DNA from: Streptomyces sp. RFCAC02
Lineage (GTDB): Bacteria; Actinomycetota; Actinomycetes; Streptomycetales; Streptomycetaceae
Length of the DNA stretch: 64,000 bases
Direction of reading: 5' to 3'
NCBI RefSeq assembly: GCF_004193175.1
Contig: NZ_SAUH01000001.1
Span: 5,737,501-5,801,500, forward strand
The translations under genes and the position numbers were made by a program. Below the pieces are notes generated by a model that searched no databases, was not told the DNA's origin, and saw only the letters and a program-made list of their open reading frames with translations. Positions 8,044 through 22,572 of this stretch are shown piece by piece (position 1 is the first letter of the stretch; every line of letters begins with the position of its first letter).

Positions 8044-10956
8044 TCACCCGCCCGCGCGCCGCCGCCGCACCTCCGCGACGGCGGCGCGCACGCGTTCCTC
8101 CCGCACCGGGTCGCCGATGCGCCGGGCGACCCGGAGGCAGCCGAGGAGCGGCAGCAGCCGCACGCCGTCGCCGCGGATCCGCGCCACCTCGTCGAACGCG
8201 AGGTCCAGCCGTTCCGCGGCCACCACCCGGTCCGCCGTGCCGAGCGCCGCCACCTGGTGGCCCAGCACCCGCGTCTCCCAGCTGTCGGCGCCCTCCGGCC
8301 GCGGCGGCGGAGGGCCGACCGGGTCCTGGACGTACGCCCGCATCGCGCACTGGGCCGCCGTGCGGTCGGCCCCCAGGGCCGCGTACGCCACGGCCGCCTG
8401 CCTCGCGTACCGGGCCGCGCCCGCGTCGTCCCCCGCCAGCTCGGCGACGCTGCCGCCGAATTCAAGGGCGCCGGCCCGGCCCGGCTCGTGCCCCATCGCC
8501 TCGAACACGGCCCGCGCGTCCGCGAGCATCGACCGGGCCGCCGCCGCGTCGCCGGTCAGCTGTTCGAGCACAGCGGCCGAGCAGCTCACCACCGCGTGCA
8601 GCACCGGCGCGTCCGCGACCTCGTCGCGCAGCCGCAGACAGCGTTCCAGAGCCCGGGGGAGCGGCGTGTCCCCGTACACGAGGAACAGCGACAGGTTGCC
8701 GTACACCTCGGCCGCACCCAGCTCCGCCCCGAACCGCCGCAGCCGCCCGTACGCCGACTCCAGCAGCGCCTCCGCGCGCCCGTAGTCGCCCGCGCGGGCG
8801 GACCGCAGGCCGTCCCACGTCTCCAGCCGCGCCAGGGCGCCCGGATCGTCCACCGCCAGCGCGAGGTCCCGCAGCGCCGGGTGCTCCCGGTCGCGCAGCA
8901 CCGCGTCCGTGACCAGCAGATGACAGGCCGCCGGGGCGTTCGCCGTGTGCCGGGCCGAGGTGACGCGGGGGTCGGCCGTGACGGCGGCGATCCGCGCCAG
9001 CGCCTCGTCCGCCCTGCCCACCGCCCCGAGGGCGTACGTCTCCAGGGCCGCCGTCTCCAGGGCCAGGGCCGCGTCGCCGTCCCCGCCGCCCGAGAGCTCC
9101 CCGGCCCGGGCGCACAGCTCGACCGCCCTCGCCACCTCGGACCGCGCGATGGCCTGCCGCGCCGCCGCCACCAGCGACCGCGCCGCCAGCTCGGTGGCCG
9201 CCGTCTCCGCCGCGGACCCCGGGTCGAACTCCCGCCAGTGCCGCTGCCCGCGCACCGCGTGCAGCACCGCCGGCTCCAGCAGCGACGGGTCGTCCTGCAC
9301 GGACCGCAGCAGCCCCTCGGCGATCGCCACGTGCACCCGCGCCCGGTCGCCGAGGACCATCTGCGCGTACGCCACCTCGGCCGCGATCCGGTTGCCGAAC
9401 AGCCCGGCGGCGTGCAGCTCCTCCAGCGCCCCGTGCAGCTCCGCCTCGGTCAGGCCGCACACCGGGTCGAGGTCACCCGGCGCGATGTCGTGCTCCCCGG
9501 CGCCGAGGCAGGCCAGGACGTGCCGCGCCGCCGCGCCCAGCGGCTCGATGCGTGCCCCGATCACCGCCTCCGCCGACGGCGCGATCTCGTCCGTGATGCC
9601 GTCGCCCGCCAGCGCGGCGAGCTGTTCGAGGAACAGCGGGTTGCCCCGGCCGCGCCGCACCAGCAGCTCGGCGGTCCCGGCGGCGTGCAGCGTGAGGTCC
9701 CCGCCGACGGCGTCGAGCAGCGCCTCCGCGTCCGCGTCCGTGAGCGGCGGCACCCGGTACGTCCGGTCGGCGCCGTACCGGTCCGTGTCACGCCCGGCCA
9801 GTACGAAGACGCACCGGCCGGCGCCCCCGGGCAGCGGGCGCAGCAGGTCGCGGAAGGCGGGTGACGCGTGGTGGAAGTCGTCCACCAGCAGGACGACGGC
9901 GCCCTGCCGCTCGCCGGCCTCGGCCAGCGACCGGCGTACCGTCCAGGCCAGTTCCCTGGGCGACGGGGCCGGACCGCCGCCCCTGCGGGGCGCGGCACGG
10001 CCGGTGTCAGCCACGGCGGCGGCCAGGTCGCGGCGCACCCGCTCCAGACGCACCAGCTCGTGGTCGGCGTCGCCGGGGCGGCAGGTGACGCGGACGACCG
10101 CGCCGGGGCCGCCGTCCTCCCGAGCCAGCGCGTCGGCGAGCCGGTCGAGCACCCGGGACTTGCCGCTGCCGATCTCGCCGCGCAGCGCCAGCACGGTCAC
10201 CCCGCCGCGGGCCGCCGCGTCCAGCACGTCGCGCCGCAGCCGGCCGAGCAGATCGGTCTGGTTCACGAACGTGCCGCCGGCCGCGCCCCGCGCGCCCGCC
10301 GCCCCGTCGGGGACGGCCGCCCAGGCGCGCAGCGGCCGTGCGAAGCCCTTCGCCGCGACCGGCGGCACCGGCTCGCACCGGACGCGGTCGCGGACCAGCA
10401 GCCAGGTGCGGACGTCCACGACCACGCCGTCCGCCGGGGCCGCCGCCTGGAGCCTGGCGGCGCGGTTCATCACCGGCCCGGTGGCGAACGACGAGTCGCG
10501 GTCCGTGGTCACCGCGCGCCCCGACGCGAGGCCGAAGCGCACCGTGAGCCGTACGCCGTGCCGTGCGGTGAACTCCGCGTTGCGCGCCGCGAGGCCGGCC
10601 AGCGCGTCGAGTGCCCCGCGGACGGCGCGCACCGCGTCGTCCTCGCCCGCCGCGTCCGCGCCGAAGACGCCGACCACCGCGTCGCCGATGAACTTCTCCA
10701 GGCGCCCGCCCGCCGCCGTCAGCGCCCCGCCGACCTCGGCGAAGTACCCCTCCAGGATGCCGTGCCACACCTGCGGGTCGAAGCGCTCCGCCAGCCGCGT
10801 CGAGCCCGAGATGTCGCAGAACACGACCGTGACGAGACGCAGCCGCGACGGTTCCGGCGCCTGCGCGAGCGAGCCGCCGCAGTACATGCAGAACACCGCC
10901 ATCGGCGGATTCACCGCGTGGCACGCCGCGCACGCGAGACCGTCACCGCTCACCAC
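8044..10956 (-). CDS. Adenylate/guanylate cyclase-domain AAA-TPR regulator
   Basis: A 970-aa cytosolic protein with four parts. A short zinc ribbon has Cys at 9, 12, 23 and 26. A class III cyclase domain spans about 40-210, with FCDISGS (Asp48) and GDAVVGVFG (Asp92) as the likely metal-binding aspartates. A STAND/AAA-type ATPase follows with Walker A GEIGSGKS at 260-267. The C-terminal half is a helical TPR-like array. Such proteins are thought to sense a ligand through the repeats. It starts with GTG inside the end of the 62-aa peptide gene, so it is the last gene of the leftward peptide operon and may regulate it. An upstream or adjacent second GTG is also possible. Confidence 0.8.
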   Translation of the reverse strand: MVSGDGLACAACHAVNPPMAVFCMYCGGSLAQAPEPSRLRLVTVVFCDISGSTRLAERFDPQVWHGILEGYFAEVGGALTAAGGRLEKFIGDAVVGVFGADAAGEDDAVRAVRGALDALAGLAARNAEFTARHGVRLTVRFGLASGRAVTTDRDSSFATGPVMNRAARLQAAAPADGVVVDVRTWLLVRDRVRCEPVPPVAAKGFARPLRAWAAVPDGAAGARGAAGGTFVNQTDLLGRLRRDVLDAAARGGVTVLALRGEIGSGKSRVLDRLADALAREDGGPGAVVRVTCRPGDADHELVRLERVRRDLAAAVADTGRAAPRRGGGPAPSPRELAWTVRRSLAEAGERQGAVVLLVDDFHHASPAFRDLLRPLPGGAGRCVFVLAGRDTDRYGADRTYRVPPLTDADAEALLDAVGGDLTLHAAGTAELLVRRGRGNPLFLEQLAALAGDGITDEIAPSAEAVIGARIEPLGAAARHVLACLGAGEHDIAPGDLDPVCGLTEAELHGALEELHAAGLFGNRIAAEVAYAQMVLGDRARVHVAIAEGLLRSVQDDPSLLEPAVLHAVRGQRHWREFDPGSAAETAATELAARSLVAAARQAIARSEVARAVELCARAGELSGGGDGDAALALETAALETYALGAVGRADEALARIAAVTADPRVTSARHTANAPAACHLLVTDAVLRDREHPALRDLALAVDDPGALARLETWDGLRSARAGDYGRAEALLESAYGRLRRFGAELGAAEVYGNLSLFLVYGDTPLPRALERCLRLRDEVADAPVLHAVVSCSAAVLEQLTGDAAAARSMLADARAVFEAMGHEPGRAGALEFGGSVAELAGDDAGAARYARQAAVAYAALGADRTAAQCAMRAYVQDPVGPPPPRPEGADSWETRVLGHQVAALGTADRVVAAERLDLAFDEVARIRGDGVRLLPLLGCLRVARRIGDPVREERVRAAVAEVRRRRAGG

Positions 10957-11138
10957 ACGACGCCACCGCCTTCCAGACCGTGCCCCTCCACGTCGCCCGC
11001 CACGTCGCCGATCTTGTGCCGGATGCGCACGAGGACCTCGATCTCCTCGTCGGTGAGGGAGTCCAGGGCGGCGAGCTGCTCCGGGCTCAGGCCGTCGGGG
11101 TCGAGCCCGAGCGGTGCCAGGCGTGATCGGTCGGTCAT
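10950..11138 (-). CDS. 62-aa candidate RiPP precursor, aroma-sacti-like
   Basis: A 62-aa peptide starting MTDRSRLAPLGLDPDGLSPE and ending DVEGHGLEGGGVVW. A helical acidic leader-like part (LSPEQLAALDSLTDEEIEVL) is followed by a glycine-rich tail that ends in tryptophan. This resembles the actinomycete 'aroma-sacti cluster' peptides, which sit beside radical SAM genes and end in an aromatic residue; I rely on memory of that family. It overlaps the heme-oxygenase-like gene by 4 nt and the cyclase gene by 7 nt, inside an operon with three radical SAM genes. It has no cysteine, so a classical sactionine thioether cannot form; C-C or C-O links, or epimerisation, are more likely if it is a substrate. 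It could instead be an accessory recognition protein. Confidence 0.7.
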   Translation of the reverse strand: MTDRSRLAPLGLDPDGLSPEQLAALDSLTDEEIEVLVRIRHKIGDVAGDVEGHGLEGGGVVW

Positions 11139-11770
11139 GGGTCGGCCCCCAGTTCTGTCAACAGCTCCACCAGTCCGTACGCGGTGGCCAGCGCGCTCGT
11201 GCGCACGAGCCGGCGCCGGCCCGCGTCGAGCGGCAGTTCCGCCAGCAGCCGCTCCAGGGCGGCGCCGTGGCCGAGGTCGAGTTCCGCGTGGCGCGCGAGC
11301 GTCCGGAACGCGTCGGGCGGCAGCCCCGTGCGTCCCGCGAGCAGCGCGTCGGCGCCCGGCCGGGGCGGGTTCCATTCGAGGACGGCGATGTGCCCGAGCA
11401 GCGCCACCGGGTGGGCGTGCCGCAGGTAGTAGTACTGGGCTCCCGCGAGCCGGGCCACGGCCGGGGATGGCACGCGGTCCACGAGGTCGCCCGGACTCCC
11501 GCCGGACGCGGCGTAGTCCTCGGCGAGCCACACCTCGTGGCCGTTCTCCTCGGCCGCCTGCTCGGCGAAGTACGCCGCGAGGCGGGTCTCGCCGCGCCGC
11601 ACCGACTCCGCGAGCGCGTCGGCCAGCAGGGGAGAGGTCGCCCGCACCAGGTCGTGGGAGGTGAGGAGCCAGCGGCGGTACGCGGCGGCGGTGGACACCG
11701 AACGCCACATGGCCGCCGACGCCCGCCGCAGGTCGGGGCTCACCACGTCCAGCAGTCCGCGCAGCGTCAT
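11135..11770 (-). CDS. Heme-oxygenase-like / iron-containing redox enzyme family protein
   Basis: A 211-aa all-helical protein resembling the TenA/PqqC/heme-oxygenase-like superfamily. Candidate metal ligands are in EQAAEENGHEVW (Glu and His, about residues 67-78) and HAELDLGHGAAL near 165-176. Diiron members of this superfamily (HDOs) oxidise amino acids or fatty acids, and PqqC-type members act in peptide-derived cofactor synthesis. It sits between a radical SAM gene (4-nt overlap) and the 62-aa peptide (4-nt overlap), so it is likely a maturation enzyme of the peptide operon. The exact reaction is unknown. Confidence 0.7.
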   Translation of the reverse strand: MTLRGLLDVVSPDLRRASAAMWRSVSTAAAYRRWLLTSHDLVRATSPLLADALAESVRRGETRLAAYFAEQAAEENGHEVWLAEDYAASGGSPGDLVDRVPSPAVARLAGAQYYYLRHAHPVALLGHIAVLEWNPPRPGADALLAGRTGLPPDAFRTLARHAELDLGHGAALERLLAELPLDAGRRRLVRTSALATAYGLVELLTELGADP

Positions 11771-12747
11771 TCCGCTCCTCCCTCCGCCGCCCCCGACGTC
11801 AGGCCCGCGGCGTACGCCGCCCGCCGCGCGAGGACGCGCCGCGCCGCCGGGTCGGCGGCGGCCCGCCGCGCTGCCGCCCAGCACGGCCCGCACACCGAAC
11901 GGGCCGTGTCCGGCACCACACCGGCGAGCCCGACGGGACCCGCCGTGCGCATCAGCCGCAGCACCGGGTCGGCGCGGAAGGCGGCCAGGGCGGCGCCCAC
12001 GCCGGCGCCCGTCACGCGCCGCCGCAGCGCGTCGGGACCCGAACCGGTGATCACCGACTCGTTGCAGCACGCGGTGACCACGCCGTCGTAGCGCACGGTC
12101 GGCGAGTCCAGCAGCGCGCAGGGGCCGAAATCGGCGGACGGGCGGCCCGGCCCGGCGGGGAAGTGCCGCGCGCCGCGCCCGGCCGGCAGCCGCGGGACGA
12201 CGCTCACCTCGGCCGCCGGGTGCGTGAAGCCCGCAGCCGGCGGTCCCCCGTCCGGCCCGGCCAGCACCTGGAGCACCAGATGGCAGCCCGCCGCCAGCAC
12301 CGCTTCCGCTGCCCGCGCCGGCGTGCCGCCGCCCATGCCGGGCCGTTCGGCGTGGAACACGTCGGTGCTCAGGTAGACGGTGCCGACCGACGCAAGCACG
12401 GCGCGGACCCAGGCGGGCACGGCGCGCCGCGCCCAGGAACCGCTGGTGAACACGACCACGGCCTTGCCCGCGTCGCCCAGCCGCCGCACGGCGTACTCGA
12501 GTCCGCGCCGCTCCGCGAACGGCTCCCCGCCGGTGATGGCCACCGCGCGCAGCCCGGGCAGGTCCGCGAGCCCTCCCACGATCCCCTCGAACAGCGGCCG
12601 GTCCGTGATCGTCGGCCCCCGGGCCACCGAACCGACCGAGCAGTGCGCGCACTCCACCGGGCACCGGTCCGTCAGGAACAGCGCCACCGTCGCCCCGGGC
12701 ACGCGCCGCAGCGCCGTCGCCCCCGCGTGCGTCAGACGTCGTCTCAC
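11767..12747 (-). CDS. Radical SAM protein, first of three in peptide operon
   Basis: A 326-aa radical SAM enzyme. The Fe-S cluster motif CPVECAHC gives Cys 29, 33 and 36 (Cx3Cx2C), and ITGGEPF is the SAM-binding GGEP motif. C-terminal cysteines occur in CALLDSP, TACCNE and VCGPCW, suggesting an auxiliary cluster like a shortened SPASM. It would generate a 5'-deoxyadenosyl radical to modify a peptide. It overlaps both neighbours by 4 nt and resembles the adjacent radical SAM protein (12744-13766), so the pair probably arose by duplication. The substrate is presumably one of the small peptides in the locus. Confidence 0.85.
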   Translation of the reverse strand: MRRRLTHAGATALRRVPGATVALFLTDRCPVECAHCSVGSVARGPTITDRPLFEGIVGGLADLPGLRAVAITGGEPFAERRGLEYAVRRLGDAGKAVVVFTSGSWARRAVPAWVRAVLASVGTVYLSTDVFHAERPGMGGGTPARAAEAVLAAGCHLVLQVLAGPDGGPPAAGFTHPAAEVSVVPRLPAGRGARHFPAGPGRPSADFGPCALLDSPTVRYDGVVTACCNESVITGSGPDALRRRVTGAGVGAALAAFRADPVLRLMRTAGPVGLAGVVPDTARSVCGPCWAAARRAAADPAARRVLARRAAYAAGLTSGAAEGGAE

Positions 12748-13766
12748 CGACCCCTCCAGCCGAGCTCCACCGCGTCGCCGAAGCGTCCCGCGCCCCAGCG
12801 CCTGGCGAGGTCGCGGGGCCGCAGGCCGTCGAGCAGCGCCTCGACGGCCACCGTCATCCCGGCCGGCACCTCAGGGGCCGCCCCGAGCCCGACGCACGTC
12901 GCGCAGTACCCGTCGCACACGGGGGAGCCCGTGCGGCGTGCCGTCTCGACCGGGCCGAGGACCCGTACAGCGCGCAGCACCGCGTCCTGCGCCGACCGGC
13001 GTCTGATCTCCGGCCACCCGTCCCGTTCCGCGTGCCCGATGATCAGGTGCCGGGGCCGGTGCCGCCGGGCCAGGCTCTGGCGGGGGCAGGCGAGCACCGT
13101 GCCGTCGATGTCGAGCAGCGGCCACTGCGCGAACTCGCACGGATCGGCCGCCGCGTGCCCGGGACCGGCCCGCTCTGGCGCGGTGAACGCCCGCGCGCGG
13201 CCGGTCGGCTGCACCCGGCCGACGAGGGCCGGCACCCGGTCCCCGAACACGGCCCGCACATCGGCCAGTACCGCTTCGGTGTACGCGTCGTCGTCCGACG
13301 TGATGTGCACGCTCACCTCCGGCACGAGGCCGGCGACCGTCTCCAGGGCCGCCAGGGCGCCGGCGCGCGGCACCTCCCGTTCGTGGAAGGCGTCCAGGCT
13401 CGCCGAGAAGTGGTCGACGCCGGCCAGCGCCCGCAGCACCGGGGGCGGCACCCGGCCGTCGCGCGCGAAGAACATGCCCGACAGCACGGCGGTCCGCGCG
13501 CCGACCGCGCGGCAGCGTGCCGCGATGCCGGCGACCAGCGCGGGGCGCAGCAAAGGCTCGCCCCCGGACATGAGGACGGCCTCGGGGCGGTCGGCGGCCG
13601 TGAACGTCTCGGCGAACCGCAGGAACGGCGCCGCGCCGTACTGGGGCGCCCCGGGTCCCGACCGGGTCGAGCAGTGGGCGCAGCTCAGCGGGCAGCGGTC
13701 GGTCAGGGCGAGGAGCAGCCCCGCCGCCGGCCGGGTCCGCAGCCGCAGCAGGTCGGCCAGATGCAC
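12744..13766 (-). CDS. Radical SAM protein, second of three in peptide operon
   Basis: A 340-aa radical SAM protein with the cluster motif CPLSCAHC (Cys 25, 29, 32) and the SAM motif MSGGEPLL. C-terminal cysteines in CEFAQWP, LACPRQ and CDGYCATC suggest auxiliary iron-sulfur binding. N-terminal sequence and architecture parallel the following gene at 11767-12747, with which it overlaps by 4 nt. Two similar radical SAM proteins side by side may form a heterodimer or act on different positions of the same peptide. The gap to the upstream GAF gene is only 13 nt. Confidence 0.85.
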   Translation of the reverse strand: MHLADLLRLRTRPAAGLLLALTDRCPLSCAHCSTRSGPGAPQYGAAPFLRFAETFTAADRPEAVLMSGGEPLLRPALVAGIAARCRAVGARTAVLSGMFFARDGRVPPPVLRALAGVDHFSASLDAFHEREVPRAGALAALETVAGLVPEVSVHITSDDDAYTEAVLADVRAVFGDRVPALVGRVQPTGRARAFTAPERAGPGHAAADPCEFAQWPLLDIDGTVLACPRQSLARRHRPRHLIIGHAERDGWPEIRRRSAQDAVLRAVRVLGPVETARRTGSPVCDGYCATCVGLGAAPEVPAGMTVAVEALLDGLRPRDLARRWGAGRFGDAVELGWRGR

Positions 13767-13779
13767 AACGACCCCTCCG

Positions 13780-14367
13780 TCACGACAGCAGTTTCGTCAG
13801 GGCGTCGACCAGGTCCTCCACGGCGTCCTCCTTCTCCGGACCGACCCGGTCCACGAGCGCGGCGAACCGGGTGACCACCCCCGACACCTCGGCCCGCCGG
13901 GCACGCGCCCTGCGGTCGGCGAGCATCAGGGCGAGGGCCGCGCAGCTCTGGTTGGCCAGCTCGGTCAGCAGGTCGATGGCCGACAGCTCGCCGATGCCGT
14001 CCAGCCGGGGATCGAGCACCTCGAGCACGCCCAGCACGTCGCCGTCGTGCTCGATCGGCGCGGCGAGGATCGTGTCGGGGACGAGCCCGGTGCCGGCGGC
14101 GAAGTCCCGGTTGAACCGCTCGTCGTCCGCGACGCCGCGCACGACGATGGGCTCGCCCGTGCCCGCGACCCAGCCGGCGATGCCGTGGTCGGCGGGGATG
14201 GCGACACCGATCAGCCGGTCCTCGCCCTCGCCGGACGACGCCTCGAAGACCAGCTCTTGCGACTCCTGGTCGTACAGGCACACCGAGGCGGCCGACGCGG
14301 CGAACGACAGGCGCGCGAGCCGGACCGTGGAGCGGAGGATCTCGTCATGGGTCGCGGTGGGATTCAT
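13780..14367 (-). CDS. GAF-domain protein
   Basis: A 195-aa protein made almost entirely of one GAF domain (about 10-165: SVCLYDQESQELVFEASSG, then GIAGWVAGTGEP and ILAAPIEHDGDVLGVLEV). GAF domains bind small ligands or cofactors or sense redox state. There is no output domain and no signal peptide, so it probably senses something and acts by contact with a partner. It lies between the subtilase gene (4-nt overlap) and the second radical SAM gene. It may tune peptide maturation or link the operon to the C-terminal cyclase regulator; this is inference. Confidence 0.75.
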   Translation of the reverse strand: MNPTATHDEILRSTVRLARLSFAASAASVCLYDQESQELVFEASSGEGEDRLIGVAIPADHGIAGWVAGTGEPIVVRGVADDERFNRDFAAGTGLVPDTILAAPIEHDGDVLGVLEVLDPRLDGIGELSAIDLLTELANQSCAALALMLADRRARARRAEVSGVVTRFAALVDRVGPEKEDAVEDLVDALTKLLS

Positions 14368-15203
14368 GCTCGTGTGCTCCTCGCCGGTCTGCGCTCCACG
14401 TTGTCGGCGACGGCGGCGAGCACGTGCCGGAGCTGCGCGGTGCGGAAACGGGGGTGGCGCTCCAGCACGCGGGCGGCGAGACCGGCCACGTGCGGGGTCG
14501 CGAAGCTGTTGCCGGAGACGACCTTGGTGCCGCCGCCCGGCCAGGGGACCCGGACGTTCACCCCCGGCGCGAACACGTCCACCGGCGGTTCCGGGTTCAC
14601 CTCCAGGTACTCGGGGTCGTCCACGGCGTGCGACCCGACCGAGATGACGGACGGGAAACGCCATGGATAGCTGATGATCGGACTGTTGTGGGCCGCCGAC
14701 ACGAGGGTCACGCCCGCGAACCAGGCGCGGTCGGCGAGGTCGTGCAGCCGCTCCTTGAGCGCCTCCTTGCGCGTCGACAGGCTCATGTTCACCAGGTCGA
14801 AACGCTGGTCCACGGCCCACTGGAGGGCGGCGAGCATCGCCTCGCCGTTGCCGCGCAGGTTGCGCGTCAGCACGCGGACGCTCGTCGTCTCGCAGTCGGG
14901 GGCCAGCCGCCGGATGATGCCCGCGCACGCCGTGCCGTGCCCGGCGACGTCCCCCACGTCGTCCGGCCCGACGGTCCACCCGCCGCCGTCCGTCTCCGCC
15001 GCCGCGAACAGCGCGACGTCGCCCACCAGCGGATGCGACGGATCGACGCCGCTGTCGATGACGCACACCCGCACGCCGCGTCCCGTCGCGTCCCCCCACG
15101 CCCAGGCACGGTCCACCGCGCCGGGCAGCGGCAGCACGTCGGGCGGCACGGTCGCGCCGGTCGAGGTGTGCGCGAACCGCACGGTGCGCGCCGCGCCGCT
15201 CAT
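14364..15203 (-). CDS. S8 subtilisin-like peptidase, cytosolic
   Basis: A 279-aa subtilase with a complete catalytic triad: Asp50 (CVIDSGVD), His89 (GHGTACAGI) and Ser233 (GNSFATPHV); the oxyanion Asn is probably in SAAHNSP. There is no signal peptide and no inhibitor propeptide, so it should act inside the cell. In a peptide locus that points to leader removal or to cleavage of a modified precursor before export by the MFS protein. It overlaps the SPASM enzyme gene and the GAF gene by 4 nt each. The length equals a bare catalytic domain. Confidence 0.87.
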   Translation of the reverse strand: MSGAARTVRFAHTSTGATVPPDVLPLPGAVDRAWAWGDATGRGVRVCVIDSGVDPSHPLVGDVALFAAAETDGGGWTVGPDDVGDVAGHGTACAGIIRRLAPDCETTSVRVLTRNLRGNGEAMLAALQWAVDQRFDLVNMSLSTRKEALKERLHDLADRAWFAGVTLVSAAHNSPIISYPWRFPSVISVGSHAVDDPEYLEVNPEPPVDVFAPGVNVRVPWPGGGTKVVSGNSFATPHVAGLAARVLERHPRFRTAQLRHVLAAVADNVERRPARSTRA

Positions 15204-16561
15204 CCCGCGCCCACGGGCCGGTAGCCGAGGCCGCGCGCGACCGCGTCGAGCCGCTCGGGCCAGTTGAACTTGACGCTGGGGCACGGCCGGTGGCCCTCCC
15301 GCCACAGCTTGGGGCAGCTCCCGCCGCACACCGGCAGCAGCGGGCAGCGGCCGCACTGCTGCTTTCCGTCGCCCACCTGGTCGTACCAGTCGTCGAACTG
15401 CCCGGCGGGCCGCGGCGCGGAGTCGGCCAGTCCGTCCACCGTGGCGACGACCCCCGTGGCCTCGGCGCCGGGCACCAGCGGGTGCTCGGAGCAGGCGAAG
15501 ACCCGGCCCGACGGGTCCAGGATCTCCCGCCGCCGCGAGGTCGCGGCGCAGGTGGTGCGCTTGACGACGTTCGGCATGGCCGGGAAGCCGAGCCCGAGGC
15601 GCCGCGCCAGCCGCAGCCACTCGGCCTCGCGCCGGGCGTAGCGCCTGGCCTCCAGCTCGACGGCGGACACGTCGTTGCCCCAGGAGTGGACCGGCATGGG
15701 GTGCACCTCGACCTGCGGGGACGCGAGGCCGAAGCACGCGAGGTCCACCAAGAGGTCGGCGACGTCGTCCTCGTTGGTCTCGTCGACGTTCATGCGGATG
15801 CCGATCCGCAGCCCGGGCACGGTCCGCTCCCGCACCGCACGGGCCAGCGCGGCGACGGTGCGGTGGAAGCTGCCGCGCCCGTTCCGCTTGAGGCGGCGCC
15901 GGTCGTGCACCGCCTGCGGGCCGTCGATCGTGACCTCCAGGGCGGCGACCTTGAGGTCGTGATGCAGTTCGTGGAGGGTGCGCGGGGTCAGCAGGCTGCC
16001 GTTCGTCACGAGGCGGGCGCGGTAACGCTTCCCGTGCTCCCCGGCCGCCGCGAGGAAACGCCGCGTCATGTCCCGCACGACGCGCAGCGCGAGCAGCGGT
16101 TCGCCGCCGAACCAGGTGACGGTGACCTCGTCCACCTCCGGGTCGGCGAACATGGCCTCGACGCGCGCGACGACCCGCTCCACCCGCGCGCGGTCCACCG
16201 GGGCCTTGAAGTGCTCCTGGCCGCAGTAGTCGCACGCCATGTTGCAGTAGCTCGTCGGCATGATCGTCACGCCGCGCGCGCCCGGCGCGTCCGACGCCGC
16301 GCGGTAGCCGGCGAGGACGGCGCCGAGTTCGTCCTCGGCCGTGTCCACGACGGCGTGCCGGGCGGCCAGGTCGGACAGACCGTCGGCGCCGATGGCCGCG
16401 ATGGCGTCCGCGTCGCCCCGGGCCAGCAGTGCCGCCGTGTCCGCGTCCACGGCGAAGGCGGCCGCGTCGCGCGCCGAGTACGCCATCCGCACGGTACGCC
16501 CCGCGCCGTCGCGGTACTCCGTGTCGCCCAGCAGCAGGTAGCGGCTGCGTGCCCAGGTCAT
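15200..16561 (-). CDS. Radical SAM/SPASM peptide maturase
   Basis: A 453-aa radical SAM enzyme with an N-terminal region of about 95 residues, which may be the peptide-recognition part, followed by the cluster motif CNMACDYC (Cys 106, 110, 113) and WFGGEPLL. The C-terminal SPASM domain has seven or more cysteines (TTCAATS, FACSEHP, QCGRCPLLPVCGGSCPKLW, CPSVKFNW) for two auxiliary 4Fe-4S clusters. This architecture is typical of RiPP enzymes that form sactionine, ether or carbon-carbon links. It is the strongest single indicator that the operon modifies a ribosomal peptide. It overlaps both neighbours by 4 nt. Confidence 0.9.
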   Translation of the reverse strand: MTWARSRYLLLGDTEYRDGAGRTVRMAYSARDAAAFAVDADTAALLARGDADAIAAIGADGLSDLAARHAVVDTAEDELGAVLAGYRAASDAPGARGVTIMPTSYCNMACDYCGQEHFKAPVDRARVERVVARVEAMFADPEVDEVTVTWFGGEPLLALRVVRDMTRRFLAAAGEHGKRYRARLVTNGSLLTPRTLHELHHDLKVAALEVTIDGPQAVHDRRRLKRNGRGSFHRTVAALARAVRERTVPGLRIGIRMNVDETNEDDVADLLVDLACFGLASPQVEVHPMPVHSWGNDVSAVELEARRYARREAEWLRLARRLGLGFPAMPNVVKRTTCAATSRRREILDPSGRVFACSEHPLVPGAEATGVVATVDGLADSAPRPAGQFDDWYDQVGDGKQQCGRCPLLPVCGGSCPKLWREGHRPCPSVKFNWPERLDAVARGLGYRPVGAG

Positions 16562-17412
16562 GACCAGTCTCCCGACGCCGCCGTGAGGTCGATCCGCAGG
16601 TCCGCCGACGCCGCGTTGAACGCGTCGCCCGGACCCACCGCGAGCCGCAGGGTCACGCCCCGCCCGGGCGCGCCCGCCGGGCCGGCGGGCAGGCACAGGG
16701 CTGCCGCCGTGCGCACTCCGTGGACGTCCGCCGCCCGCCCGATGAACCGCGCCACCGTCCGGTCGGCGCACTCCACCCCGCGCACCCCGCCGCCGGCCAC
16801 CGTCACCGTCACCGGGTGGCCGGCGAGGTCGGTGCCGAGCGCGGTCGCCCGGTTCACCAGGAGGGTGCCGTCCGCGACGAACACGCCGTCGGCGCCCGTG
16901 AGCGGCGCCTCCGCCGTGCCGCGCGCGCTGCCGCGCCGGGCACCTGACGTCGTGCAGACCAGTTCGGCCGCGCCGCCGCCCGAGCCGACCCGGATCCGCC
17001 GCCCGAGACCGGCGGCCAGCGCGTCCGCCGCCGCGTCGAGTTCGGCGTCGGGGCGCCACAGGTCGAGCGGTGAGCGGTCCGCCGTGCCCGCGAGCCGCAG
17101 CACCCCGGGGGGCAGGCCGAGCACCGCGTCGGACAGCACGACGACGGCCGTGCGCGGTTCCGCCGCGTCGGCGGCGACGCGCCGCTCCACCGCCGCAGGG
17201 GGCGCGTGCCCCGCCGCGCGTACGACGCACCGGGCGCCGTACGCCCTGGCGTACGCCGCGAGCAGCGCCGCCTCCGCCGCGCGGTGCGGCGCGAAGACGA
17301 CGACGAAGCGCTCCGCACCGCTGCCGCGCAGGAGACCGCCGGTGATCTGCCGCACCGCCGGACGCCAGCGGTCCGTCCGCGCCGCCTCCCGCGGCTGCGC
17401 CGGGGCCGCCAT
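16558..17412 (-). CDS. Unknown protein, weakly aminopeptidase T-like
   Basis: A 284-aa protein I cannot assign firmly. The middle (GRRIRVGSGGGAAELVCTTS) and the following GTDLAGHPVTVTVAGG and FNAASADLRIDLTA stretches recall the M29 aminopeptidase/NicX-like fold, but the metal-binding Glu/His pattern of M29 is not clear. No signal peptide or membrane helix. It is translationally coupled to the MFS gene (1-nt TGATG overlap) and to the SPASM gene (4-nt overlap), so a role in processing or recognising the peptide is likely. Composition is very GC-rich, in contrast with the MFS gene next to it. Confidence 0.5.
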   Translation of the reverse strand: MAAPAQPREAARTDRWRPAVRQITGGLLRGSGAERFVVVFAPHRAAEAALLAAYARAYGARCVVRAAGHAPPAAVERRVAADAAEPRTAVVVLSDAVLGLPPGVLRLAGTADRSPLDLWRPDAELDAAADALAAGLGRRIRVGSGGGAAELVCTTSGARRGSARGTAEAPLTGADGVFVADGTLLVNRATALGTDLAGHPVTVTVAGGGVRGVECADRTVARFIGRAADVHGVRTAAALCLPAGPAGAPGRGVTLRLAVGPGDAFNAASADLRIDLTAASGDWS

Positions 17413-18827
17413 CAGGCCGCCCCGTCCGACGTCATGACCTTCTCGCCCGTCCCGCCGGCGCCGTCGTCCCGCTCACCGGCCTCCGCCGCGCGCGCCGCGT
17501 ACCGGGCGAGCGGGCGGATCGCGCACACTCCCGCGATGATCATCATGAGTGCCCCGCATCCATAGATGGTGTCGATCCGGCCGACATGCACACCCCACAC
17601 CTCGCCGTCCAGATCGCGCAGCGCCGTACTGGCGAGGAAACCGGTCACCGCCATCGAGAGAATCGATGCCAGATAAACGGTCGGATTGAGCACCGAGTTG
17701 ATGCGTCCGAGCAGATGCTGTGGCGTCGCCCGCAGCACCAGCGGCCCGACGACGACATTCACCGAAGCGATGGAAATGCTCGCGAGCGAGAGCAGCGCGA
17801 GAGCGAACCAGAGGGACGACTGCCGCGAATAGAGCAGCACGATGACACCGGTCACCAGAATGCCGTACGCGAACGTCCGGGTCTCCCCGAGTTTCCGCGC
17901 GAACTTCGCGGCGACGAGCGACCCGGCGATACTTCCCACGCCGAACGCGGCATTCAGCGTGCCGAGCCAGCCGGCGTCCGTGTGCAGATTGTCCGTGACG
18001 AAGAAGACGTTCAGCACATTGAGGGCGCCGACCCCCACCATGTAGACGAAGACCGTGCCGACGACGACGAGAAGCATCCGGTTTCCCACGAAGAACCGGA
18101 AACCCTCCAGCAACTCCGCGCGGAACGCCCGGGATCCCTTTCCGTCCTCGCGCGCCCGGCCGCCGGCCGGCACCCGGATCAGCCGGATCGCCGCGTACGA
18201 CACGAGGAAGGAGCAGACATTGACCACGAGGGCCCACTGCTCCCCGACACCGAACAGCAGGGGCGCGGCGAGCGGCGGGCCGATGATGGCCGCCGTCCCC
18301 GACGTCGCCGTGAGCAGGCCGAACGCCCGGGTGCGGTGGTCCGCGTGGACCATGGACGCGATCAGCGAGAACCGCGCCGGGTTGAAGAACTGCGCCGCCG
18401 AACTGCTGAGCGCCACCATCAGGTAGATCAGCGCCACCTGGAGCCAGGCCGGCCAGCTCCCGCCCGCCAGCGGGATGACCAGCAGCACGCCGATGAACGC
18501 CGCGCGCAGCAGGTCCGCCACCCGCATGACGCGCGCGTGGTCCCACCGGTCCACGTACACCCCGGCCACCGGGCCGACCAGCAGCACCGGCAGCGCCGCG
18601 GCGAGCAGCACCCCGCTCACCGCGGCGGGCGCCCACGGCTCGCCCGCCGCGACGCTCGCACCGATCCACAGGAGCACGGTCGTGTTGAACACCTGGTCGC
18701 CGATGACGGACACGGCCTGGCTGAACCACAGACGCTGCCAGTTGCGCTCCCGCCACAGGGGCACCGGCGCACCGGGCACCCCGCCGGCCGCGGCCTCCGT
18801 GCCGCGCGCCGCGCCGCCGTCGCTCAC
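17412..18827 (-). CDS. MFS transporter, probable peptide exporter
   Basis: A 471-aa major facilitator with 12 predicted membrane helices. An early motif VDRWDHARVMRVADLLRA follows helix 2, as in the enterobactin exporter/macrolide efflux (MFS_3) group. In the peptide operon it probably exports the product or confers self-resistance. The middle and C-terminal coding part (about 17540-18140) uses visibly more A/T at third positions than its neighbours, which hints at a different origin from the flanking genes. It overlaps the cupin gene by 4 nt and the unknown gene by 1 nt. Confidence 0.85.
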   Translation of the reverse strand: MSDGGAARGTEAAAGGVPGAPVPLWRERNWQRLWFSQAVSVIGDQVFNTTVLLWIGASVAAGEPWAPAAVSGVLLAAALPVLLVGPVAGVYVDRWDHARVMRVADLLRAAFIGVLLVIPLAGGSWPAWLQVALIYLMVALSSSAAQFFNPARFSLIASMVHADHRTRAFGLLTATSGTAAIIGPPLAAPLLFGVGEQWALVVNVCSFLVSYAAIRLIRVPAGGRAREDGKGSRAFRAELLEGFRFFVGNRMLLVVVGTVFVYMVGVGALNVLNVFFVTDNLHTDAGWLGTLNAAFGVGSIAGSLVAAKFARKLGETRTFAYGILVTGVIVLLYSRQSSLWFALALLSLASISIASVNVVVGPLVLRATPQHLLGRINSVLNPTVYLASILSMAVTGFLASTALRDLDGEVWGVHVGRIDTIYGCGALMMIIAGVCAIRPLARYAARAAEAGERDDGAGGTGEKVMTSDGAA

Positions 18828-19747
18828 TCGGCGCCCCCGGGCGCCCGCAGCGCGCTCAGCAGGGGGCCGGGGGAGCGGGCGGCCGGGGTCTCGCGGGCCA
18901 GCAGCTCCCGCGCCCGTCCCGACGCGGCCAGGTCCGCCGTGTACGCGGCGAACAGCGCGGCGCGCTCCCGCAGCAGTTCCCCGCGGTCCGCGCCGGCGAA
19001 CACCGGGGGCAGCGCCTCACGCAGTTCGGGCCGTTCGTCCGCCGCGCGCTCCAGCGCCTTCCGCAGGAGCAGCGCCCACGTGACGGGGCGCAGCGCCACC
19101 GACAGGTGCAGCGACGGCTCGTCCGCCGCCTCGGCCGCGTGGACGAACCCGCGCGGCACGTACAGGCAGTCGCCCGGCCGCAGGACCACGTCGACGACCG
19201 GATCGTCCGGCGCCGTGCCGGGGGCGCCGCGGTGCTCGCGCAGCGGCCAGGGGGTGACGGGCGGGCTCACGCGCCAGTGCTTCGAGCCGGCGACCTGCCG
19301 GACGAAGACGCTCGCCGTGTCGTGGTGCGGCGCGACGCCCGGGTGCCCGGCGGGGGTCAGGAACGCCGTCACGTACGTGTCGTAACCCGTCGCCTCGGAC
19401 ACGGCGCCCGCAAAATCCGCTATCGGCGGGGAATACGCCTTGAGGTTCTCCAGGATCAGGGTCGCGCCGGCGTCCACACGCCGCGCGACTTCCGCGCCGT
19501 CGGCCACCCGGTCGTTCGCGGAACGGCCGTAGACACCGGGTAATGCCAACGCCATTGGCCTCACGGGTCGGCCACCCGCGGTCAGCCGTACGGAATCGAG
19601 CGGGAAGCCGCGGGCGAGCATCGCGTCGACGCTTTCCCACGACAGAAGATCGTCGCAGTCGCCCAGCCCGGTGCTGAGGAGGGGGTGGCGTTCCCACGCG
19701 GATTCCAGCGCCGTGGTGTCTTCGACGAGGCGGAGCAGGCAGTCCAT
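18824..19747 (-). CDS. JmjC-like cupin dioxygenase, first gene of peptide operon
   Basis: A 307-aa cupin related to the No66/MINA/YcfD JmjC hydroxylases, which hydroxylate ribosomal proteins or peptides with Fe(II) and 2-oxoglutarate. Metal ligands are likely His141 and Asp143 (PHHDTASVFVRQ) plus a later His in YVPRGFVHAAE. The ATG at 19747 has a strong AAGGAGG ribosome site, which decides against longer upstream starts. Codon 69 is TTA (complement of 19541-19543), the rare leucine codon read by bldA tRNA in Streptomyces, so translation of the first operon gene may depend on development. Codons nearby are also A/T richer. It probably hydroxylates the peptide of this locus. Confidence 0.8.
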   Translation of the reverse strand: MDCLLRLVEDTTALESAWERHPLLSTGLGDCDDLLSWESVDAMLARGFPLDSVRLTAGGRPVRPMALALPGVYGRSANDRVADGAEVARRVDAGATLILENLKAYSPPIADFAGAVSEATGYDTYVTAFLTPAGHPGVAPHHDTASVFVRQVAGSKHWRVSPPVTPWPLREHRGAPGTAPDDPVVDVVLRPGDCLYVPRGFVHAAEAADEPSLHLSVALRPVTWALLLRKALERAADERPELREALPPVFAGADRGELLRERAALFAAYTADLAASGRARELLARETPAARSPGPLLSALRAPGGAE

Positions 19748-20121
19748 GGCCCTCCTTCGAGGGTGCGCCCGGGATCTCGCGAGGAGAGTACGCCCGGTCA
19801 CCCAGCGGCAGCAACCGTTGACAGAAACATGCGGCTGTGCAACCGCGTGACGCGTAATGGAGTCATGCGGCGCGGCCGGGAAAAGCCTTCGGAAACCCTC
19901 TTCACGTTTTCTTCGCCGGACTTGACAGGTATCTGGCGGGGCGGGAATCTGAACTGCGCCGCGCTCGCGGCGCTCGATCGTGTCGGGGGGCACCGGGAAC
20001 CGGTTCGTAAAACCGGCCGGAAATACAGGTCATCCCCTGCCGCGACGTTCCACAGCAATGGCGCCATTCGCGCCGGCATGCGCCGGCGACCCCATGCACC
20101 GACACGCGATGGAGGTATGCC
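19748..20121. promoter_or_regulatory. Divergent promoter region of the peptide locus
   Basis: These 374 bp separate the leftward eleven-gene operon from the rightward 48-aa peptide gene and are clearly less GC-rich than the flanks. A consensus TTGACA (19922-19927) followed after 17 bp by GAATCT (19945-19950) is a plausible rightward promoter, giving a leader of about 165 nt before the peptide. Ribosome sites for both sides are clear (AAGGAGG for the cupin, GGAGG at 20111 for the peptide). I see no further gene in it; open frames here have no family resemblance. Confidence 0.55.
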
Positions 20122-20268
20122 ATGTCCGAGGAGAACGAGCCCGGCAAGGAAGAGATCGAGGCCGCCGAGACCGAGGTCGAGCAGGCCGAGGCCGACGTCG
20201 AGGGCCACGGCATCAGCGCCGAGGTGGAGGTCGACTCGCCCGTGCTCGACGTCAACTTCGGCTGCTGA
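20122..20268 (+). CDS. 48-aa candidate RiPP precursor
   Basis: A 48-aa acidic peptide starting MSEENEPGKEEIEAAETEVE, followed by QAEADVEGHGISAEVEVDSP and ending VLDVNFGC. A GGAGG ribosome site lies 6 nt before the ATG. Residues 1-24 form a highly charged helix that looks like a leader; DVEGHG (25-30) is shared with the 62-aa peptide at the other end of the locus; the tail has one Ser, Asp residues and a C-terminal Cys. It faces away from the radical SAM operon and is followed by a helical-repeat protein and a SagB-type dehydrogenase. It is too short for routine gene calls. The idea that it is a precursor is inference from size, layout and context. Confidence 0.75.
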   Translation: MSEENEPGKEEIEAAETEVEQAEADVEGHGISAEVEVDSPVLDVNFGC

Positions 20269-20365
20269 CCAGCCCTCCGGCCCGGCCCCGCGGCGGCACC
20301 GCTCCCGCCCCGGCGCCGGGCCACCCCGACGCGCACGCGACCGGCCGGACGGCGGAGGGACCCTC

Positions 20366-21481
20366 GTGACCGACACCATGACACGTCGCTCGACACCGTT
20401 CGGCTTCCTCTCCGACACCCGCCGCGCGCCCACCGGCCGCGCCGAGGCCCTGCGCACCGTGACGGAACTCCTCGACCGGGACGGGACGGCGAGCCTCTAC
20501 CGCGCCTGCAACCTCCTCGCCCTCGTCCACTTCCGCACCGGCGACGCCGCCGGGGCACGCAGGCTCTGCCTCGCCCAGATCGCGTACGCGCGCGCCCACC
20601 GGCACACCGACCGCGGCCTGCGCCTCGCCGTCCTCGCGCTCCAGCCGCAGGTCAACCTCATCCGCCTCAAGGGGTACGCACCCCGGCACGCGGACACGGC
20701 GCTGCGTGAACTGGCCGCCCTGGAACCGCTGATCGACGGCCGGGGCACCCGTCTTCCCGACTACGCGCTCGACGACGCCACCGCCCGCCGCGCCGTGGAC
20801 GAGGGCGTGCTCGACCGCACGGTGCTGCGCAACGTCGTCGTCCAGGACACCTGCCAGATCCTGTGGCGCCACCACCGGCACGACCGGCTCACCGCCGCCG
20901 CCGCGCGCCTCGCCGGCCGGTGGCCCGGACTGCCCGAGACCCGGTGCGTGCAGCACGCCGCCGAAGCGCCCTGGCTGGTGGACGCGGCGGCGCAGCCGGA
21001 GGTCCGGCCCGGACTCCTCGACGGGCCGCCCGGCGCCGCCCGCCGCCTCGCGTACGTCCGTCTCCTGCACATCGCCCACGCCGGCACCGACCCGGCGGCC
21101 GGTGACGGCCGCCGCGCACGGGCGCGGGAACTCGTCACCCACCTCGCGGCGCGCCGGGACGTCCTCGACGGCCCGTTCGCCGATCCGGTGACCCCGCTGC
21201 GCTGGCTCGGCTCGCTCGCCCTCACCGCCGAACGGGCCGGTCTCCCGGCCGTCGCCCGGTCGCTGTTCGCCGAACTCGCCGCTGACCCGGCCGCGGCGGC
21301 CGACCCCGTGCTCGACCGCCTCACGCGCGAGCGGGCCGGCCTCGGCCCCCGCCCGGCGCCCCCCGGCGAGAAGGACCCCGTGCCGGCCGCCCTGACCGCC
21401 CGCGTCAGCGCGCGGCTCGGCGCCGGAACCGGCCACCGGGACGACTGGACGGGACCAGTGCACGAACGACTCGAGGAGTGA
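20366..21481 (+). CDS. Helical-repeat (TPR-like) protein of peptide locus
   Basis: A 371-aa, alanine/arginine-rich helical protein resembling TPR solenoids; I do not recognise a specific family. The GTG at 20366 has a GGAGGG site 8 nt upstream, which fixes the start (VTDTMTRRSTPFGFL). It lies 97 nt after the 48-aa peptide and its stop overlaps or nearly touches the SagB-type gene. TPR-like proteins in peptide clusters often bind the leader or scaffold the enzymes, so a chaperone or recognition role is plausible. No catalytic motif was seen. Confidence 0.6.
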   Translation: MTDTMTRRSTPFGFLSDTRRAPTGRAEALRTVTELLDRDGTASLYRACNLLALVHFRTGDAAGARRLCLAQIAYARAHRHTDRGLRLAVLALQPQVNLIRLKGYAPRHADTALRELAALEPLIDGRGTRLPDYALDDATARRAVDEGVLDRTVLRNVVVQDTCQILWRHHRHDRLTAAAARLAGRWPGLPETRCVQHAAEAPWLVDAAAQPEVRPGLLDGPPGAARRLAYVRLLHIAHAGTDPAAGDGRRARARELVTHLAARRDVLDGPFADPVTPLRWLGSLALTAERAGLPAVARSLFAELAADPAAAADPVLDRLTRERAGLGPRPAPPGEKDPVPAALTARVSARLGAGTGHRDDWTGPVHERLEE

Positions 21482-21486
21482 CGAGG

Positions 21487-22572
21487 GTGCCCGACGGCGA
21501 CCTGCTCTACCCCGTGGACCCGCTGGTCGTCGAATCGACGGGCGGCGCCCTCGTCCTCTCCAGCCCGCGGCTGCGCACCCGCCTGCGCGTCATCCCCTCC
21601 GTCGCCGCCCTGCTGCTCGCCGCGCGCGACGGTGTGCCCGACGACGGCGACGGCACGGTGACCCGCCTGGCCGAGGCCGGGTTCCTGGTCCGCAAGGAGG
21701 AGGCCGCCGACGCGCCGGGGACGCCGTGGGACGTGTGGGGCACCACCGCGTGGAGCCTGCACAACCGCACCCGCGACACCCCGTTCGTCGGCACGCGCGC
21801 GGACGACCCGGCCGCGCGCGAGCGGGTGCTCGCCGCGATCGAGGCGTACCCGCGGCCCCCGTCCGTCCGCGCCCCGGCGAGCGACCGCGTGCTGCTGCTG
21901 CCGCGCGTCCGCACCGTATCGAGCGTGCCGTACCGCGATGTCCTCGAACAGCGCCGCACACACCGCGACTTCGAGGAAGCGCCGATCGCCCTCGACGCGT
22001 TCTCCGACATGCTGCACTACTGCTTCGCGCCCCTGCGGTTCGCGGACGCGGGCCCCATGGGGGTCCTCCAGCTCCGCGCCGCCGCGTCGGGCGGGGCACG
22101 GCACGAGACCGAGGCGTTCGTCTTCGTCCTCGACGTCGAGCACGTCCGGCCCGGCCTCTACCACTACGACGGCATCCGCCACGGCCTCGTCCCGCTCGAT
22201 CCGTCCGCCGGCCGCGACGTTCTGGAGCACCTGACGCACCACCAAGGTTTTTTCAAGCGCGCCGCGTTCGGGGTGCTCACCGCCGCCGTGGCCCACCGCA
22301 TGGCCTGGAAGTACCAGCACCCCCGGGCCTACAAGCTGCTGCTGCAGAACATCGGGCACGTCGCACAGGTCTTCTCCATGACCGCGACCGCGCTCGGCCT
22401 GGGCGCCGCGCTCACCGGCGCGATCCGCGACACGGAGGCGGACACCCTGCTCGGCCTCGAACAGCCCGCCGAGTTCACGACGTTCGCCCTGGCCTGCGGC
22501 GTCCCCGTGCGCCGCCCCGACGGGCTGCCGCTGTCGATCCGGACGCCCGGCGAACCGTTCGGCGGCCACTGA
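21487..22572 (+). CDS. SagB-type FMN-dependent peptide dehydrogenase
   Basis: A 361-aa nitroreductase-fold protein of the SagB/ThcOx group: YRDVLEQRRTHRDFEEAP near 145-165 is the typical FMN-binding start, and a substrate-facing helix and GHVAQVFSMTATALGLG follow. SagB enzymes oxidise azolines to azoles in RiPPs, and relatives desaturate other peptide residues. The GTG at 21487 is preferred because GAGGAG lies 8 nt upstream; a GTG at 21478 overlapping the previous stop is an alternative. No YcaO cyclodehydratase is present in the window, so if this acts on the peptides the reaction may not be azole formation. Confidence 0.82.
   Translation: MPDGDLLYPVDPLVVESTGGALVLSSPRLRTRLRVIPSVAALLLAARDGVPDDGDGTVTRLAEAGFLVRKEEAADAPGTPWDVWGTTAWSLHNRTRDTPFVGTRADDPAARERVLAAIEAYPRPPSVRAPASDRVLLLPRVRTVSSVPYRDVLEQRRTHRDFEEAPIALDAFSDMLHYCFAPLRFADAGPMGVLQLRAAASGGARHETEAFVFVLDVEHVRPGLYHYDGIRHGLVPLDPSAGRDVLEHLTHHQGFFKRAAFGVLTAAVAHRMAWKYQHPRAYKLLLQNIGHVAQVFSMTATALGLGAALTGAIRDTEADTLLGLEQPAEFTTFALACGVPVRRPDGLPLSIRTPGEPFGGH

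Follow-up and report, generated by a model that had tools for sequence, protein, structure and literature searches.

The 64,000-nucleotide window from Streptomyces sp. RFCAC02 (contig NZ_SAUH01000001.1, positions 5,737,501 to 5,801,500) contains at 8044–22572 a fourteen-gene locus, which we interpret, with moderate confidence, as a cluster for ribosomally synthesized and post-translationally modified peptides (RiPPs) with two precursors, pepA and pepB, built from two modules and with one protease and one regulator serving both. The window has a G+C content of about 74%, and the host genome a size of 6.13 Mb. A home-made codon-bias caller, whose calls were then translated, places eleven genes on the minus strand at 8044–19747, in window order CYC, pepA, HDO, rS_A, rS_B, GAF, SUB, SPASM, UNK, MFS, and JMJ, and three divergent genes on the plus strand at 20122–22572, pepB, TPR, and SAGB. 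Seven of the eleven operon genes form module P, which consists of two small radical S-adenosylmethionine (SAM) enzymes, HDO, pepA, CYC, SUB, and GAF; module S, which accompanies pepB, is composed of SPASM, UNK, MFS, JMJ, SAGB, and TPR. The original prediction described a composite RiPP-type locus with a leftward, near-continuously overlapping operon, and both parts of this description stand: nine of the ten operon junctions overlap (by 7, 4, 4, 4, 4, 4, 4, 1, and 4 nucleotides, with a single 13-nucleotide gap), and both peptides are conserved beside the enzymes.

The two peptides share the sequence DVEGHG, which was absent from the earlier account of the locus. It precedes the C-terminal tail in pepA (DVEGH at residues 49–53; 10980–10994, minus strand) and the core in pepB (residues 25–29; 20194–20208, plus strand). 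At the loci with rS_B, 59 of the 61 pepA copies have VxxH, with Ala or Gly in the third position, no more than 22 residues from the end, the two exceptions, both at L266, reading VEGQ. Among short open reading frames (ORFs) that are neither pepA nor annotated, the pattern [DE][DEV]?[VI]x[AG]H is found in 69 of 146 at rS_B loci versus 1 of 121 at 43 control loci. The count leaves out, on both sides, every ORF with a match to pepA or pepB, and the control loci are those without rS_B, excluding L113, L157, L011, and L159, which have pepB-type peptides, and L188–L202, which are rS_B loci. In multicore precursors the motif is repeated before the cores, 13 times within 314 aa in L193 (once with Ser for Ala), six times in L245, five in L243, four in L200, and three in L196. 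Because it recurs with each core, the motif may be a processing or recognition site.

The subtilase SUB (14364–15203, minus strand; 279 aa; PF00082, E = 7.5e-30) has an intact Asp/His/Ser set and scores 121.9 bits against the QhpE profile NF049966, under the cut-off of 165. A SUB relative lies 11 to 13 kb from pepA in all seven genomes checked where a VEGH-bearing pepA occurs without rS_B. The loci L274–L277 and L279–L281 were considered as clusters without a subtilase and rejected as such, since the subtilase lies just outside the fetched stretch. SUB is presumably the protease accompanying the motif and, together with the GAF-domain protein encoded next to it (13780–14367, minus strand; 195 aa), would cleave pepA and pepB alike, at the shared [DE]VxxH or close to it.

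The first peptide, pepA (10950–11138, minus strand; 62 aa), reaches 61.1 bits (60.3 in a second search) against the NCBIfam family NF045560, “aroma_sacti_dom”, with a cut-off of 30. Its C-terminal tail, LEGGGVVW (residues 55–62; 10953–10976, minus strand), is the proposed substrate of rS_A, rS_B, and HDO. At rS_B loci all 61 called pepA copies, which comprise 55 distinct sequences, have Phe (51) or Trp (10) as the last residue, preceded by a Gly-rich stretch; AGGALF is the most frequent tail (43), and others are, for example, GGGVVW, TGGVVW, and VGGLFF. No aromatic tail occurs at the eight loci with pepA only; these are the gene-called ones, beside those with SPASM, among the 17 genomes with pepA and without rS_B. 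A broader set comprises 41 distinct peptides whose loci, some of them short, have neither rS_B nor HDO; some of these peptides are also among the eight. The set contains 23 with non-aromatic tails (KLL 15, KLA 6, KML, and KVM), one with an aromatic tail, 16 Cys-ending precursors, and one weak stray match. The pepA profile used was built from ten pepA sequences of this analysis, and its matches lean to that form.

The identity of the aromatic residue follows the second small radical SAM protein: all ten Trp tails belong to loci with rS_A, where they make up 10 of 17 tails, and all 44 tails from loci without rS_A end in ALF. The simplest reading of this correlation is that pepA is the substrate of rS_B (12744–13766, minus strand; 340 aa) and HDO (11135–11770, minus strand; 211 aa), with rS_A (11767–12747, minus strand) added for Trp tails. 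The three enzymes would act on the tail Gly-Gly-Gly-Val-Val-Trp as pathways such as that of mycofactocin act on a dipeptide of Val and an aromatic residue at the C-terminus. For rS_A we adopted the GTG start at 12747 (326 aa) in place of the caller's shorter choice (311 aa), because the orthologue in L113 begins at the equivalent position, with a 4-nucleotide overlap.

Four loci (L195, L233, L235, and L249) contain three pepA copies beside rS_A, rS_B, and HDO, one of the copies sharing its reading frame with an MFS transporter, and a motif scan found no other precursor there. The copies counted as pepA in L195, L235, and L249, and by layout in L233, are the ends of these MFS frames, which makes the MFS tally a lower bound. 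The frames at L195:12230-13960, L235:5837-7546, and L249:5840-7345 terminate in a pepA-like domain that is complete and has the tail GGLVW; they are possibly transporters fused to the peptide.

A second constant feature of pepA is its position next to a regulator gene. CYC follows pepA immediately and in the same orientation in 47 of the 52 rS_B loci where pepA was called; in the window the two genes overlap by 7 nucleotides. CYC (8044–10956, minus strand; 970 aa) is, by its Pfam matches, a regulator with zinc-ribbon-like, class III cyclase, and AAA_16 parts and a long C-terminal part. At the pepA-only loci the next gene is SARP-like, judged by eye, in seven of eight cases, L278 having another gene, and in L171 pepA follows a gene with a LuxR-type helix-turn-helix (HTH; Pfam GerE), with L020 and L167 similar by eye. 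To judge from this pairing, the regulator may read pepA or its product. The modified tail would then be a signal or cofactor sensed by CYC.

The same pairing bears on an alternative that we consider possible, if rather doubtful, in which pepA is no substrate and acts as a leader-like adaptor for the regulator or protease, with rS_A, rS_B, and HDO working on pepB or on the cluster's other precursor. It would account for pepA persisting without rS_B, with tails such as IKLA or LKLL, beside CYC, for its position directly before SARP-like genes or after the LuxR-type gene of L171, and for pepA-like leaders heading Cys-ending precursors in clusters of the L010 type. An adaptor role does not explain the Gly-rich aromatic tail that goes with rS_B in every called copy, nor the four loci with three pepA copies, where these are the only precursors found. 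These two observations argue for pepA as a second substrate.

Module P is far more widespread than the locus in the window. At E <= 1e-15, rS_B is found in 58 of 297 Streptomycetaceae genomes, and its 70 match rows reduce to 60 places after ten second fragments or neighbouring matches were dropped. An NF045560 peptide lies within 6 kb of rS_B in 55 of the 60 places, at a median distance of 992 bp. Peptides over the NF045560 cut-off occur in 73 of the 297 genomes, namely in 56 of the 58 with rS_B and 17 of the 239 others. In the 60 loci, rS_B and HDO were each called in 56, SUB and GAF in 55, CYC and pepA in 52, and all six together in 47, with an rS_A relative in 11. Counted as misses within the 60 are L110 and L272, which are cut by contig ends, L247, which has no call at all, and L271, which has no rS_B call; of the eight uncalled pepA genes, the one in L111 was recovered by profile.

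BLAST searches for partner synthetases at these loci gave LanKC in 25 of 60, SPASM2 in 13, the window-type SPASM in 4, and SPASM3 in 2, with both LanKC and SPASM2 in two loci and none of the four in 18. As LanKC query we used a protein that scores 893 bits as a class III lanthionine synthetase, over the cut-off of 575. Module P is therefore shared among several types of RiPP and, so far as these queries show, also occurs on its own. Since window-type SPASM occurs in only 4 of the 58 rS_B genomes (G000, G037, G163, and G207), the idea that rS_B and HDO are parts of a pathway restricted to SPASM was rejected. The original prediction took the genes to act as one set. The recurrence of all fourteen genes described below supports this, whereas a single enzyme set is not what we find, because seven operon genes form a module that also stands beside other RiPP classes or without a recognised partner.

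Several multicore precursors with up to 13 cores that contain a WC pair (L193:10755-11699, L243, L244, L245, L248, L196, L200, and L238) adjoin a SPASM-like enzyme and often also a prolyl-oligopeptidase-like gene. Short ORFs ending in DTGWGH at L193:18235-18429 and L200:1349-1570 possibly represent another small peptide family.

Only tentatively do we suggest that module P constitutes a separate RiPP system, in which the C-terminal [LVIF]-[FW] end of pepA, following a Gly-rich stretch, would be turned into a small signal or redox cofactor by rS_B, with rS_A for Trp, and a diiron-type oxidase, released by the subtilase, and sensed by the STAND-type regulator. The same subtilase would then mature the partner RiPP at the same motif, and a portable actinobacterial helper would tie class III lanthipeptides, radical SAM RiPPs, and the type in the window to one peptide-derived small molecule.

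The second peptide, pepB (20122–20268, plus strand; 48 aa), is the proposed main precursor. A protein database search returned only pepB itself, and its relatives were found instead at genome loci. In the six sequences, from the window and five further loci, only eight residues are invariant, the D, V, E, G, and H of the shared motif followed by N, G, and C, so that DVEGH and N-x-G-C are kept in all six; a seventh pepB-type peptide, in L158, has DLEGHS and ends in NVACCC. Both short peptides had been proposed as real genes, which agrees with the wide conservation and family score of pepA and with these invariant motifs of pepB.

ORFs ending in [ND]xxC are enriched near SPASM genes, with 34 of 1,324 short ORFs within 2.5 kb versus 18 of 2,356 beyond 4 kb (p = 1.6e-5); part of the 34 are chance ORFs, and loci that are related do not count as independent. 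The L010 precursor terminates in Cys, and the gene after SPASM encodes a Cys-decarboxylase-like flavoprotein (PF02441). The invariance in pepB, the [ND]xxC enrichment, and the terminal Cys of L010 point to N-x-G-C as the place where SPASM acts. The acidic leader of pepB would end near DVEGH, the core would reach from there to the C-terminal NFGC (residues 45–48; 20254–20265, plus strand), and SPASM would cross-link the core at its Asn-x-Gly-Cys end, most probably via its one Cys.

The L010 cluster (L010:9688-15655) encodes an NF045560-leader precursor with a C-terminal Cys (NTNVVC), SPASM, the PF02441 (HFCD) flavoprotein, and a radical SAM protein whose B12-binding match is weak, possibly combining Cys decarboxylation with a radical SAM cross-link; L018, L122, and L123 resemble it by eye. 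An HTH fusion in the long pepA form of L010 is not claimed, as it has no Pfam match. In six loci from the family of genome G988 (L164, L165, L166, L168, L169, and L174; about 8.9–11.1 kb), a SPASM relative adjoins a short ORF whose Ala-rich N-terminus resembles a signal peptide and which has NFGC or NFAC close to the end. The next gene in L164 matches an ArsR-like HTH, and in others of this group it does so by eye only.

SPASM (15200–16561, minus strand; 453 aa) has the CxxxCxxC at Cys 106/110/113 and eight more cysteines, as in a radical SAM/SPASM peptide maturase. Cys 338, 357, 403, 406, 412, 416, and 427 are invariant in 37 sequences, and 106/110/113 are kept at >=90%. With a precursor containing Cys it resembles the sactipeptide systems of the StsA/StsB type and the TIGR04463 maturases, whose profile gives SPASM 193.7 bits against a cut-off of 525; it differs in that the pepB relatives share one invariant Cys, in N-x-G-C. 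A single sactipeptide-type pathway, with pepA as the sole substrate of all three radical SAM proteins and pepB as a regulator or immunity peptide, appears improbable to us. The family name “aroma-sacti” could suggest it, as could the NF045560 score of pepA and its weak likeness to the StsA-related NF045559 (18.5 bits, cut-off 75). However, the pepA translation contains no Cys, so that pepA cannot carry a thioether from Cys to an alpha-carbon, and pepB, with its one Cys, keeps N-x-G-C and accompanies SPASM into loci of different layout.

The protein search with SPASM gave at least 251 relatives. Strong genome matches occur in 12 of 297 genomes of the family sample, 9 of 392 of the genus sample, 25 of 250 from the family of G988, and 1 of 394 of the class sample, which is the window's own. 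We examined 51 distinct SPASM loci, reading SPASM by tblastn in L158, L173, L119, and L121, where the caller gave no usable call. Nine loci have a SPASM at least 50% identical to that of the window, one of them (L110) cut by a contig end, and six of the nine (window, L113, L111, L112, L157, and L158) encode pepB-type peptides. SPASM relatives of about 42% identity adjoin other precursors.

All fourteen genes occur together in three genomes from two families. L113 has them in the order of the window, and L157 and L286, which lie on one contig of another actinobacterial family, have them in a different arrangement. Because the whole set recurs in this way, the genes do travel together. L157 taken as half a cluster was rejected, as the remaining genes were found in L286, and likewise an interrupted subtilase in L286, where the flagged TGA proved to be the stop codon of that gene; the beginning of rS_A in L286 lies in the same open frame upstream of the called start. 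At L157:14769-17248, an M16-peptidase-like gene pair that is absent from the window stands between pepB and SAGB, the second gene scoring under the Pfam cut-off. L111 and L112 contain pepB, CYC, pepA, HDO, rS_A, rS_B, GAF, SUB, SPASM, and UNK, and no MFS, JMJ, TPR, or SAGB within the fetched 20 kb.

This recurrence also bears on the idea that two independent pathways lie side by side by chance or through shared regulation, with no common step. We regard it as highly doubtful, even though 54 of the 58 rS_B genomes are without window-type SPASM and many SPASM relatives are without rS_B within the fetched stretch. Near-continuous translational coupling runs across the module border, where SUB and SPASM overlap by 4 nucleotides, the full set is kept in two gene orders, and DVEGH is common to both peptides. 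Homologues scattered without either peptide, which the original prediction named as evidence against itself, are not what is seen for rS_B, given the pepA relative in 55 of 60 places. For SPASM this is partly the case, with the relatives of about 42% identity beside other precursors and two of the nine close loci, L009 and L156, bare.

Several observations weigh against the two-precursor interpretation. L009 and L156 hold SPASM without other genes of the cluster beyond two weak 31% matches in L009; neither has a candidate pepB, neither genome gives a strong subtilase match, and the L009 genome has no NF045560 match. The two loci are evidence against a strict unit. A further point on this side is the 18 of 60 rS_B loci at which our queries gave no partner synthetase. 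The aromatic end alone is not exclusive to rS_B loci, because the pepA of L159 ends in VKVF with no rS_B or HDO within the fetched stretch. The correlation between tail and enzymes may partly reflect common descent, as 43 of the 61 tails have the same sequence, AGGALF, all within a single bacterial family, and L195, L233, and L235 are near copies. In L266, which has rS_A, rS_B, and HDO, the two pepA copies that lack VxxH have the tails VGAGIF and VGVGIF. The motif itself could be read by the maturases instead of a protease. In HDO (PF14518, Haem_oxygenas_2, E = 3e-12), the residues E75-x2-H78, E132, and H161-x3-D165-x2-H168 resemble what we take to be the ligand set of heme-oxygenase-like diiron oxidases, and the HDO of L113, the nearest relative, is without the Asp and the second His of H-x3-D-x2-H, which is odd for an essential oxidase.

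Were the two-precursor interpretation correct, a helper module with a conserved, substrate-like peptide would be present in about one-fifth of the sampled Streptomycetaceae genomes (58/297) beside quite different RiPP machineries. It would account for two peptides per cluster, make [DE]VxxH a simple motif for finding precursors and core borders, and suggest what might serve silent clusters as a switch or cofactor. What we observe is the gene content, the motifs, conservation, co-occurrence, and the tail correlation; the reactions, cleavage sites, and ligand roles are those we infer.

Compared with known systems, the locus belongs by membership to none of the named RiPP pathways that we tested. 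The original prediction knew of no described RiPP class with this gene set, which holds for these pathways; the locus is nevertheless not wholly undescribed, because pepA belongs to NF045560, of which it is a full-score member and which is known here from its family name and description line. The open-access literature subset searched contains no mention of “aroma-sacti” and no paper that combines a heme-oxygenase-like protein, RiPP, radical SAM, and precursor peptide. Beside NF045560, the correlation between tail and enzymes, the two-precursor layout, and the shared motif stem from the present analysis.

The closest layout is that of mycofactocin. According to the account of that pathway in PMC7491314, MftC carries out an oxidative decarboxylation and a cyclisation of the C-terminal Val-Tyr of MftA, which follows Gly, and a peptidase then releases the modified dipeptide for further oxidation (PMC7491314). 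Like MftA, pepA is a short peptide with a C-terminal Val-aromatic pair after Gly, a likeness of layout and not of kinship. It differs in ending in Trp or Phe where MftA has Tyr, and the window has a heme-oxygenase-like oxidase, a subtilase as protease, and a cyclase/AAA-type regulator. Neither MftA nor MftC is among the matches listed, which cover both pepA families and the best 25 of 30 for rS_B.

The best NCBIfam match of rS_B is PqqE of the PQQ pathway, a weak one with 25.9 bits against a cut-off of 381; pepA has no PqqA match, and HDO keeps metal-ligand-like residues. HDO presumably shares the broad heme-oxygenase-like fold with PqqC. Class III lanthipeptide loci are linked to the window through module P, which lies near a LanKC relative in the 25 loci mentioned, many with VEAH-bearing short ORFs; the fourteen genes of the window include no LanKC. 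A YcaO, as in linear azol(in)e peptide clusters, is likewise missing from the Pfam matches of the fourteen genes, as originally stated.

The families first read from motifs hold by profile. All three radical SAM genes match Pfam Radical_SAM, rS_A just under the cut-off (27.2 versus 29.5 bits), and Pfam also gives MFS, GAF, and cyclase plus AAA_16 for the genes so named. The Asp-His-Ser of the subtilase, the HxD and distal His of JmjC proteins, CxxxCxxC, and the SPASM cysteines were assigned by what we take to be their characteristic motifs. JMJ (18824–19747, minus strand; 307 aa) is a JmjC_2 Fe(II)/2-oxoglutarate-type oxygenase (PF08007, E = 2e-24) with HxD and the distal His kept, and would hydroxylate the pepB core. 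The flavoenzyme SAGB (21487–22572, plus strand; 361 aa), which scores 91 bits against the cut-off of 78.4 of the SagB family TIGR03605, would oxidise it, and the MFS exporter (17412–18827, minus strand; 471 aa) would export the product.

No Pfam family was matched by UNK, TPR, or pepB. UNK (16558–17412, minus strand; 284 aa) had been described as an unknown protein, which is right as regards Pfam; its predicted fold, though, is M29/CgnB/CgnE-like, with the HxD metal pair in none of eight UNK sequences. The protein database search with UNK returned three relatives besides itself, and no PDB match was found by sequence. The crocagin proteins CgnB and CgnE are 11–14% identical to UNK with a large root mean square deviation, and UNK is surrounded by different enzymes. 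The fold suggests that UNK may assist SPASM as a precursor-binding protein. TPR (20366–21481, plus strand; 371 aa) is predicted to be all-helical (pLDDT 77), and its model has no Foldseek match at E <= 0.001, which is not proof of a new fold. With the SagB family match and this model, the divergent unit proposed at the outset, a 48-aa peptide, a helical protein, and a SagB-type gene, is confirmed.

A scan of 19700–20400 found no sigma-70-like promoters and one terminator-like site versus 0.5 expected, and Rfam has no match in the window. Upstream in window order, at window:3536-8034, a ROK-like regulator (read by eye) is divergent from a sugar ABC transporter unit of a binding protein and two permeases, which reaches the end of CYC at 8044. 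At window:58300-62895 lies a gene for an RHS-repeat protein of 1531 aa, whose N-terminus is T7SS-signal-like and whose C-terminal domain is Stv adhesin-like.

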